Assembly (NCBI RefSeq): GCF_000236035.1
Contig: NZ_JH393258.1
Coordinates: 1-64,000 of the forward strand
From: Vreelandella boliviensis LC1
GTDB taxonomy: Bacteria > Pseudomonadota > Gammaproteobacteria > Pseudomonadales > Halomonadaceae
Length of the DNA: 64,000 nt
Direction: 5' to 3'
Position numbers and translations under genes: made by a program. Every line of letters starts with the position of its first letter. The stretch's first letter is position 1. Under the pieces are notes generated by a model. That model was given only the letters and a program-made list of their open reading frames with translations. It was not told the DNA's origin and did no database searches. Shown piece after piece: positions 3,429 through 64,000 of the stretch.

Positions 3429-6552
<3,124 letters not shown>

Positions 6553-27255: not shown

Positions 27256-27717
27256 TCACCACTCCAGGCTGGTTTCGCGCAGCGCACCTATTTCGTGCTT
27301 GGCAGCCTGAAGATTATCCAGCAACTGCTGACGTAAACCGGTTGGATTACCCACCGCTATCATAGCGGGATTGTGAGCCGTACGCCGTGCAGCACCATCA
27401 TCACTATGCAGGCGCTCAAGTTGAACCACCAGCCAATTCAGCCAGCTTTCCGGCTGAGCAGCTAAATCGCGCAGACGTTGCAACTCGGCTAAAGCAGGGC
27501 CTTCCTGGGCTAGCAACAGCGTCCAACGGTGGTTAGACAAGCGGGCGTGTTCCGTCACTTCACGCAGCAGCGACTCCAATGCCAGCTCAAACAGCGCCAA
27601 AGCACTCTCTTCCAGCGCCATCTGCCGCGCCGAGGCATGCTCATCATCCCCCGCAGGCAAAGCAGCTAGCAGCTCTGCTTGGTAGAGCAGCTGATTGGTC
27701 CGTGACCGTGCATTCAC
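27256..27717 (-). CDS. small helical protein coupled to topA (DUF6586-like)
   Basis: The likely start is the GTG at 27715-27717, which overlaps the topA stop as GTGA and has GGAGG nine bases upstream inside topA; the open frame extends eight codons further but without such a signal. The product is then 153 residues, helical and soluble ([34 protein letters not shown]). A small unknown protein follows topA in Pseudomonas too (PA3010 next to PA3011), and I believe it belongs to the same family (DUF6586). Tight coupling suggests a role linked to topoisomerase I, but this is inference. Confidence 0.75.
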
Positions 27718-62496: not shown

Positions 62497-63093
62497 TTAG
62501 AAACGGTAAGTAATACCACCGCCAACGGTAACGGGCTCGATGTCGACTTTACCACCAACATTGATATCCGCATTCACGTCAGCGTAGCTTGCGTAACCAT
62601 TAAGCATGATGTTATTGGTCACGGCCAGGTCAATACCCACTTGACCGATAGCGCCGTAGCTTTCATCAATGTCTAAACCGCTCGGCTCACCGGAGAAACG
62701 TGTGTAGTTAAGGCCAGCACCGATATAAGGCTGTACACGTGAATCCAAACCACCCATCGGATAGTAGTTAATTAATAGGTTAATCGGAAGACGATCAACA
62801 CTACCCGCATCGCCACCAGTAGCGGTGCTGATATCGTGCTCAAACTTCTCTGAGCTATTCAGTTCAACGCCGAGCTTGTCGGTAAACAGGTAGCCAGCAC
62901 CGAAAGTGAAACCCCGTGCTTCGTCTACACTTAGTGGATCACCAGCCACGTTACCATTACCTGAACCCGTGTCCGTTTGGGCAACGCCGCCACGAACGAA
63001 TACGTCACCAGCGTTATAAGCGAGTGCCGCTTGGCTGACCAGTGCAAAGCTAGCAGTGATAACAGCGGCAGAAATCAGTTTCATATTACTCAT
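62497..63093 (-). CDS. ompW: OmpW-family outer-membrane protein
   Basis: OmpW is an eight-stranded barrel with a narrow hydrophobic channel for small molecules. From ATG 63091-63093 (AGAGGA seven bases upstream) the product has 198 residues: a signal peptide ending ALAYN, VFVRGGVAQTDTGSG, alternating beta strands (FTFGAGYLFTDKLGVELNSS, VQPYIGAGLNYTRFSG) and a C-terminal Phe (GGGITYRF), the outer-membrane assembly signal. A candidate promoter (TTGGAA, 15 bases, TATACT) lies at 63171-63197. Loops are acidic. Confidence 0.92.
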   Translation of the reverse strand: MSNMKLISAAVITASFALVSQAALAYNAGDVFVRGGVAQTDTGSGNGNVAGDPLSVDEARGFTFGAGYLFTDKLGVELNSSEKFEHDISTATGGDAGSVDRLPINLLINYYPMGGLDSRVQPYIGAGLNYTRFSGEPSGLDIDESYGAIGQVGIDLAVTNNIMLNGYASYADVNADINVGGKVDIEPVTVGGGITYRF

Positions 63094-63266
63094 CAGGGTC
63101 ATCCTCTGTATGCAGCGCATGTTCCTTGCGCTTGGGATTGCGGTAGTTGCCATCCAACTTTCCTGTACAGAGTATAGTATACGAACACTGTTTCCAAATT
63201 GCTTGTAAAATATTGTTATAAGTAATGCAACTTTGATAGTTTTTTCTATCTATAAAATTCAGGCAT

Positions 63267-63406
63267 AAAAAAAGTCCCCCGAAGGGGACCCAGGTGGAGC
63301 ACGCCAGCTCACTCGGTTTATCGCTACTAGGTGGTAGCGATGTAGGTGAAGAAGGGAGAGAAGCAAACTATCTAAGCCGTTGTTTCTCTATTCACTCACC
63401 CTTTGC
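63267..63406 (-). ncRNA. candidate small RNA with sigma54 promoter and terminator
   Basis: No open frame explains this stretch. Read on the minus strand from about 63406, three hairpins follow each other: GGTGA/TCACC with inner AGAGAA/TTCTCT; a perfect ATCGCTAC/GTAGCGAT stem (six-base loop) at about 63330-63352; and a GTCCCC/GGGGAC stem with a TTCG-type loop followed by seven T (63267-63289), a textbook intrinsic terminator. A sigma54 promoter sits at the right distance upstream. The single-stranded part includes AGAAACAACGG, which could bind Hfq. Length is about 140 bases. I do not recognise it as a known family. Confidence 0.62.
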
Positions 63407-63415
63407 CATATATAT

Positions 63416-63431
63416 TGCGATCTGCGTGCCA
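63416..63431 (-). promoter_or_regulatory. sigma54 (-24/-12) promoter
   Basis: TGGCACGCAGATCGCA on the minus strand matches the TGGCACG-N4-TTGCA consensus at all but one position, with the invariant GG and GC ten bases apart. Transcription should start about 10-12 bases downstream, near 63405-63407. Confidence 0.68.
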
Positions 63432-63516
63432 CTTTTTAAAAAACCAATATAAAACAATGCATTAATAAAATACAGCTTGATTTCTATTAACCTCTCTCGC
63501 ACTGCAGCACATTAAC

Positions 63517-63533
63517 TGCACCAGCATTGCGCA
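63517..63533. promoter_or_regulatory. NtrC-like upstream activator site
   Basis: TGCACCAGCATTGCGCA resembles the NtrC site TGCACCA-N3-TGGTGCA, with two mismatches in the right half, and lies about 90-100 bases upstream of the sigma54 element. Other TGCA-containing motifs lie at 63503-63520 and 63537-63552. The rest of 63432-63603 shows no gene. Confidence 0.4.
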
Positions 63534-63603
63534 ATTTGCAGCCTTTTTGCATCACAAAGCATCATTTGAGTTCGTTATCGCTTAGAAATCCTCAAAGTAG
63601 TGG

Positions 63604-64000
63604 CTAGGGCGTCACGATGATTTTCACCTGGGCTTTATCGCTGAGCAGCGCCTCAAAGCCTTCTTCCACGATATCCGCCAGTGGAATGCGCTGGGTGACC
63701 ATATCTTCGGCGCGGAAGTAGCCCCGCTGCATTAGCGCCATTACCGCTGGATACACATGGCGATAGGCAATAATACCCTTCATGGTGCGCTCTTTAATGA
63801 CCAGGTCGTTAGGCTGGAAGCTGGCCTCCCCTTCCCAGATACTCACCACCACCACTTCGCCGCCTTCGTGGGTGCTATGTAGCGCCTGATTGAGCACGGC
63901 GGGAATGCCTGTCACTTCAAACGCCACATCCACACCGCCACTGTTCAGCGAATGAATTTTTGCCACCGCATCCTCCTGCTGCGGGTCAACCACAATAGCG
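63604..64000 (-). CDS. butanediol dehydrogenase-type zinc alcohol dehydrogenase, N-terminus beyond window
   Basis: The frame enters from the right edge, so only about 131 C-terminal residues are visible. They include the end of the NAD-binding fold (GGVDVAFEVTGIPAVLNQAL, EGGEVVVVSIWEGEASFQPN), DLVIKERTMKGIIAYRHVYP and PLADIVEEGFEALLSDKAQV, ending KIIVTP. This pattern is that of (R,R)-2,3-butanediol dehydrogenases and related zinc-dependent medium-chain dehydrogenases. The catalytic zinc ligands lie outside the window. The start codon cannot be placed; an internal GTG at 63991 is not the start. Confidence 0.85.
   Translation of the reverse strand, partial: AIVVDPQQEDAVAKIHSLNSGGVDVAFEVTGIPAVLNQALHSTHEGGEVVVVSIWEGEASFQPNDLVIKERTMKGIIAYRHVYPAVMALMQRGYFRAEDMVTQRIPLADIVEEGFEALLSDKAQVKIIVTP

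Follow-up and report, generated by a model that had tools for sequence, protein, structure and literature searches.

A candidate nitrogen-responsive small RNA gene with sigma54- and NtrC-like control elements in Vreelandella boliviensis and its sibling core behind amtB in Halomonadaceae

CrcZ, GlmY/GlmZ, and Qrr are small RNAs with sigma54 promoters. Two further RNAs are tied to nitrogen, and it is these that the RNA described here would, by analogy, most resemble in the way it works. First, NrsZ of Pseudomonas aeruginosa, as presented in the sections of the paper drawn on here, is encoded between ntrC and PA5126, is regulated by nitrogen via NtrB/C and RpoN, and folds into several hairpins over about 226 nt, the first 60 nt of which form its short functional part (PMC8395346). 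Second, GlnZ of Enterobacteriaceae, again as presented in the sections drawn on here, comes from the 3'UTR of glnA, an NtrC/sigma54-controlled nitrogen-gene mRNA; it is Hfq-dependent, carries the conserved seed UUGCCGUGGAAA, which adjoins the terminator in S. enterica, and has sucA as a target (PMC9731577).

The locus that we compare with these systems lies in a window of 64,000 nucleotides of Vreelandella boliviensis LC1 (contig NZ_JH393258.1, positions 1 to 64,000), in which the original prediction, made from the letters alone, had proposed a sigma54-driven small RNA in a 450-base gap without a gene. Every part named in that gap was found in place, on the minus strand, as follows.

63604–64000, running on past the window, minus strand: upstream neighbor, zinc-binding dehydrogenase gene (Pfam PF00107/PF08240; its coding end is 63604), outside the RNA gene.
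63548–63564, minus strand: weaker second NtrC-like site TGATGCTTTGTGATGCA, offset -133, 8 of 12 positions; offsets across the loci have their second mode here.
63517–63533, minus strand: NtrC-like palindrome TGCGCAATGCTGGTGCA, the main enhancer site, at offset -102, a class shared by 82 of 96 standalone loci.
63416–63431, minus strand: sigma54-type -24/-12 promoter TGGCACGCAGATCGCA; present at each of the 34 genus loci, with a strict match at 87 of the 99 standalone loci.
63267–63406, minus strand: predicted small RNA of ~140 nt, its start inferred from the promoter.
63347–63398, minus strand: 5' hairpin, stems 63398–63395/63350–63347 and 63389–63384/63362–63357; compensatory changes at 4 of 4 and 4 of 6 pairs.
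63320–63341, minus strand: second hairpin, stem 63341–63337/63324–63320; compensatory changes at 4 of 5 pairs.
63296–63312, minus strand: 17-nt invariant core GUGAGCUGGCGUGCUCC, the proposed seed, which can fold into a GAGC/GCUC hairpin with the loop UGGCGU.
63267–63291, minus strand: intrinsic terminator GGGTCCCCTTCGGGGGACTTTTTTT, stem 63291–63272, then a T run to 63267.
62497–63153, minus strand: downstream neighbor, gene for an OmpW-family outer membrane protein (Pfam PF03922), outside the RNA gene.

From the comparisons set out below, we conclude that the gap very probably holds the gene for a small regulatory RNA that is switched on when nitrogen is short. The reading that we prefer, with a probability of about 0.72, is that of an NtrC/sigma54-activated, trans-acting sRNA of ~140 nt, the core of which pairs with mRNAs and which has a sibling in the 3'UTR of amtB. 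Under nitrogen limitation, phosphorylated NtrC would bind the palindromes 100–135 bp upstream and activate sigma54 RNA polymerase at the -24/-12 promoter, so that expression would depend on both NtrC and RpoN, and the RNA would end at its own terminator. Its working part would be the 3' module, consisting of the 17-nt core, the terminator, and the U tail, which probably binds Hfq and thereby lets the core pair with target mRNAs, and the amtB mRNA would probably release a sibling sRNA with the same core. An inducible promoter, a structured 5' part, an invariant core, and a terminator with a U tail would together make up the layout of an Hfq-dependent trans-acting sRNA.

The locus shares a sigma54-type promoter with CrcZ, GlmY/GlmZ, and Qrr but differs from them in having no Rfam match to any of them, either at gathering score or up to E = 10. 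No Rfam family reaches gathering score in the window, which agrees with the proposal that the RNA is not obviously related to known families, or in the stretches L328, L156, and L090; further, none of the eight matches that our stretch gives up to E = 10 is to a sigma54-dependent sRNA family. As far as the cited sections describe NrsZ, the likeness lies in a nitrogen-linked RNA with several hairpins and a short conserved part. The differences are that NrsZ adjoins ntrC, whereas the neighbors here are the OmpW-family and dehydrogenase genes, with no ntrC, and that the functional part of NrsZ is 5', whereas the conserved part here is 3' and adjoins the terminator; the two RNAs are thus set apart by description. 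With GlnZ, on the same partial footing in the source, the amtB copy shares its layout (a seed by the terminator, 3' of a nitrogen gene). The parent gene of GlnZ, however, is glnA, whereas here a separate, standalone gene of sigma54 type carries the same core as its twin behind amtB. Reading the predicted RNA by eye, we did not find the GlnZ seed, as given in those sections, in it. Because position, parent gene, or core differ, we place the RNA with neither NrsZ nor GlnZ, and our searches, which covered open-access papers, brought up no prior description of it.

The core lies directly before the terminator and is the most conserved part of the RNA, exceeding even the terminator stem. A DNA search of 58 genomes (our own, 36 of the same genus, and 21 of the same order) matched 37, namely our own, 35 of the same genus, and one of the same order (a 29-base match, E = 0.0017). 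The standalone gene is present in our own genome and in 33 of the 36 same-genus genomes; in G007 and G030, the amtB copy alone was seen, and G009 gave no match. In the 34 genus RNAs and the first 11 amtB copies, the core is invariant, and one further amtB copy (G019) has it with a single change. When one mismatch is allowed, it is found in 114 of the 151 genomes sampled from Halomonadaceae and in 16 of their 24 genera; reversed, the pattern occurs once (G070). The matches in G100 and G133, to which their genus adds no others, fall within coding sequence, have no terminator, and were dropped, which leaves 112 of 151 genomes and 15 of 24 genera, with part of the other one-mismatch matches inspected individually. 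The RNA had been predicted for this genus; it is present there but is not confined to it, given those 15 genera. Across the class, just 2 of the 369 genomes sampled carry the exact core, and both belong to this genus. A scan by named species returned at least 118 core-matching stretches; among the 80 listed by name, 79 are from Halomonadaceae (Vreelandella, Halomonas, Billgrantia, Chromohalobacter, Salinicola, Modicisalibacter, Litchfieldella, Onishia, Franzmannia, and Aidingimonas), and one is a Pseudonocardiales record (L086) without a terminator, which is likewise absent from L173.

The second setting of the core is an operon of nitrogen genes. In our own genome, the order (L328:3773-6015) is a PII gene, an ammonium transporter gene, core and terminator, and a second PII gene; the Pfam domains are P-II, Ammonium_transp, and P-II, and the best NCBIfam match of the transporter is the marine-subtype ammonium transporter (amtB, glnK1, and glnK2 are labels assigned in this analysis). 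Among 60 unique amtB-type loci, recognized by the AmtB C-terminal sequence, a PII gene follows downstream in 59, and the core starts 13–18 bases past the amtB stop codon in 50; in our own genome, this distance is 35 bases. A strict -24/-12 match within 200 bases upstream was seen in just 3 of 61 amtB copies, which means that a sibling RNA would mostly need to be cut from the mRNA. A -24/-12-like element precedes the first PII gene in 36 of 36 loci (10–12 of 12 points, within 420 bases; no control), and the best NtrC-like site of that gene is near -104 or -135 in 25 of the 36 and off these offsets in 11 (no control), our own operon being among those that depart from the usual offsets, with its best site at -145. 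In L148, which is not among the 36 loci, the PII gene is absent from the searched stretch. Because the 3' module follows the amtB stop codon in an operon with a like promoter at its first gene, we consider it probable that the amtB mRNA releases a sibling. The RNA had been proposed to respond to nitrogen or carbon; the sibling copy points to nitrogen rather than carbon. Beside these results, we note that a conserved stretch, GGTGTATGCT, 3' of the amtB-copy terminator in our own genome may serve the second PII gene as its promoter and that, at ~7590-8900 of L328, two ORF translations contain X runs, indicating N stretches in the sequence.

Searches for partners of the core gave no convincing target. 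In the search for start-site targets, the sequence GGAGCACGCCA, complementary to the core's 3' portion, had 70 matches in 10 genomes, 20 of which were the RNA copies themselves (reversed control, 13), and CACGCCAGCTC had 62, again including 20 RNA copies (reversed control, 54). The sequence GGAGCACGCCATG was found in 88 of 151 genomes and, with a shuffled spacer, in 36 of 151; the genes behind it differ. It makes up 156 of 7352 matches of the open pattern GGAGNNNGCCATG (2.1% against 1.6%, or 1 in 64), and its share is 140 of 6316 in the 112 core-bearing genomes and 16 of 1036 in the 39 without the core (Fisher p = 0.20). Being near the ordinary start-site background and in front of different genes, start-site targets via GGAGCACGCCATG were rejected and are not counted as evidence. 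The full complement of the core (G-U allowed, up to one mismatch) was below its reversed control in 9 of 12 genomes and above it in 3, and the 41 such places that we read (25 in our own genome, 10 in relatives, and 6 more including one amtB copy) offered no convincing start site; one of them, L397, has possible GTG starts, yet inside a long open frame. The GlnZ target sucA showed no consistent pairing with the core over 11 loci, and, as its orthologues and those of the PF02812 dehydrogenases (12 loci) disagree, both were rejected. Individual starts did better than most of the shuffled seeds in a few cases (L369, 8 of 200; L378, 7 of 200; L379, 1 and 6 of 200). Among 49 ORFs of the window, the best energy was -25.0 kcal/mol, compared with a mean best of -23.5 and a minimum of -29.2 for 60 shuffled seeds. 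Start-site complementarity was thus near background in these searches.

This outcome also fits the main rival to a pairing core, in which the GAGC/GCUC hairpin with its UGGCGU loop is bound by a protein and both RNAs are decoys or stability elements under nitrogen limitation. CrcZ and RsmZ have a decoy-type mode of action. Further, stem as well as loop are invariant in the 34 genus copies and 11 amtB copies, and the core occurs in two different transcripts. Against this, a role in structure only usually tolerates compensatory changes in the stem, none of which were seen, and each RNA has a single copy of the element, a low number for a decoy. We therefore regard a protein-binding hairpin as unlikely, even though it is the rival to be taken most seriously, and continue to favor a core that pairs with mRNAs.

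Sequence comparison also brings out the promoter and enhancer-like architecture. The -24/-12 element is where it had been predicted, at 63431–63416, with an exact -24 GG and -12 GC, the -12 element being TCGCA, not TTGCA. In the window on its own, the pattern TGGCAYNNNNNTYGCW is seen three times against 0.57 expected, a count reached by 3 of 100 shuffles (the two further matches are at 4332–4347 and 27569–27584, minus strand), and an NtrC-like pattern with up to one mismatch is seen twice against 2.86 expected. Because the promoter is thus mildly unusual and the palindrome is not, the motifs are weak evidence when the window alone is considered, and the case rests on the comparison with relatives. 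Among these, TGGCAY-N5-TCGCW is present in 34 of 34 standalone genus loci, in a scan that demanded CGC and accepted either T or C as the base in front of it. More widely, among the 99 unique standalone copies that have a terminator, 87 are preceded by a strict -24/-12 match, which occurs in 8 of 640 control blocks, and 96 by a relaxed match, which occurs in 164 of 640 blocks (117 of 395 in an earlier control at the relaxed level). We note a conserved departure from the sigma54 consensus, in that the -12 element has TCGC in place of the usual TTGC at 78 of the 96 standalone loci.

The NtrC-like palindrome, predicted about 95 bases upstream, begins and ends 86–102 bases before the first base of the -24 element. 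When the best match to TGCACC-N5-GGTGCA was sought within 220 bases upstream, 82 of the 96 standalone loci had it in one of two offset ranges, -99 to -107 or -131 to -139; for palindromes with shuffled arms, the mean was 14.2 loci and the maximum 51. The promoter and enhancer counts are strong but not independent, since the loci are related and the scan criteria, scoring, and offset windows were fixed after a first look at them. The two offset classes are ~32 bp apart, and E. coli glnAp2 has two NtrC sites with a like spacing of about 32 bp. With a conserved promoter directly 5' of the RNA and NtrC-like sites at conserved offsets, the latter in windows chosen post hoc, the RNA would belong with the sigma54/NtrC-activated sRNAs, and the relatives, through promoter, offsets, and covariation, support the sigma54-driven small RNA with an NtrC-like enhancer that the original prediction had put forward.

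An enhancer-binding protein other than NtrC might serve the same promoter. The sigma54 activator gene at L329:10795-12786, ~2.8 kb past the right window end, has Sigma54_activat and Fis-type HTH domains, which makes its product a candidate, and the palindrome by itself is not rare in the window; this activator gene is near the dehydrogenase gene and a flavin monooxygenase gene. The palindrome nevertheless stays at its offsets from genus to genus, also at loci that lack the tested window neighbors within 1.5 kb, and the twin copy sits in the PII-amtB operon, both of which speak for NtrC and make an NtrC-independent sigma54 RNA improbable.

The same neighbors bear on whether the RNA is a part of another transcript. 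It might be a 5' leader (attenuator) of ompW or a 3' remnant of the dehydrogenase transcript: it is on the same strand as both neighbors, and an OmpW gene is 3' of 41 of 99 standalone copies. Yet a strong terminator stands between the RNA and ompW, and none of the 16 standalone loci from other genera of which the flanks were inspected contains any tested window neighbor, while promoter, core, and terminator persist in all 16. Because the neighbors are missing there, promoter, RNA, and terminator appear to move as a unit, and a leader or remnant is very improbable. The gap showed no promoter of the sigma70 type. The single ORF in the gap encodes 52 amino acids on the opposite strand, and a coding reading was rejected since the minimal RNAs of 47–48 nt, described below, are too short to fit an ORF.

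The preferred reading of a discrete, structured small RNA draws further on its fold. The stretch 63406–63262 has a predicted energy of -53.4 kcal/mol (z = -4.13), and none of 200 shuffles is as stable. In agreement with the consecutive hairpins and clean terminator first proposed, the predicted fold consists of a long 5' hairpin, the second hairpin, a short core hairpin, and a strong terminator. Among the 34 genus RNAs, both partners have changed at 14 of the 28 predicted pairs, and 95.8% of alignment cells pair, compared with 40–51% for slid partners. The covariation score is 0.299 against 0.173 for shuffled alignments, with 0 of 500 shuffles reaching the real score, the structure having been predicted on the same alignment; a second covariation measure, the count of further pair types, was not above shuffles (166 of 500). 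Thus, the outer stems covary in relatives, and loss of stem conservation, which had been named as grounds for refuting the RNA, is not what was found; the core hairpin is without covariation support because it never varies. That core and terminator are simply a conserved terminator-type repeat with no regulatory function, as their constant company in the standalone and amtB sets might suggest (a terminator was required when building the sets), has a negligible probability, since copies are few per genome and at defined nitrogen-linked sites, the core is conserved beyond the terminator stem, and the outer stems covary.

Over 96 loci, the predicted RNA ranges from 47 to 192 nt, with a median of 139. 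At the short end, in Halomonas halmophila (L090), H. caseinilytica (L091), and H. elongata (L156), the -24/-12 element is 26–27 bases before the core, so that the predicted RNA is 47–48 nt, namely core and terminator; promoter scores are 8–9 of 10, and the best NtrC-like site is at the usual offset in two of the three. This natural short form suggests that the 5' hairpins are dispensable. We give about even odds to a broader proposal, in which Halomonadaceae have a two-source nitrogen sRNA system, an NtrC/sigma54 gene and the amtB 3'UTR delivering one 17-nt seed and thus joining ammonium transport and global nitrogen status in one post-transcriptional regulon, with the gene pared to ~47 nt, seed and terminator, in the Halomonas elongata group. 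A dedicated gene and a 3'UTR copy with one core, together with a natural 47-nt form, would allow a clean test of whether a terminator-adjoining seed suffices for sRNA function.

Halomonas relatives serve in the production of the bioplastic PHB, typically under nitrogen limitation. In H. bluephagenesis, according to the sections of a 2026 report drawn on here, disruption of sigma54 raised PHB and slowed growth (PMC13101641). If our reading is true, a conserved sRNA linked to nitrogen would supply a post-transcriptional layer so far missing from that nitrogen/sigma54 response.

Finally, altered copies were seen with R1, a covariance model of the 3' module, in a sample of 37 genomes without a core match, four with a one-mismatch match, and our own. 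Matches at E up to 0.1 were found in 34 of these 42 genomes and are, by score, mostly plain terminators. Among the 13 R1 loci that were read, four are behind amtB; of these, G064 and G160 have an altered core, and G149 and G132 have none that is recognizable. Halomonas maura (L108 and L113) has two core copies, neither of them at amtB, with a promoter-like element 61 and 128 bases before the core.
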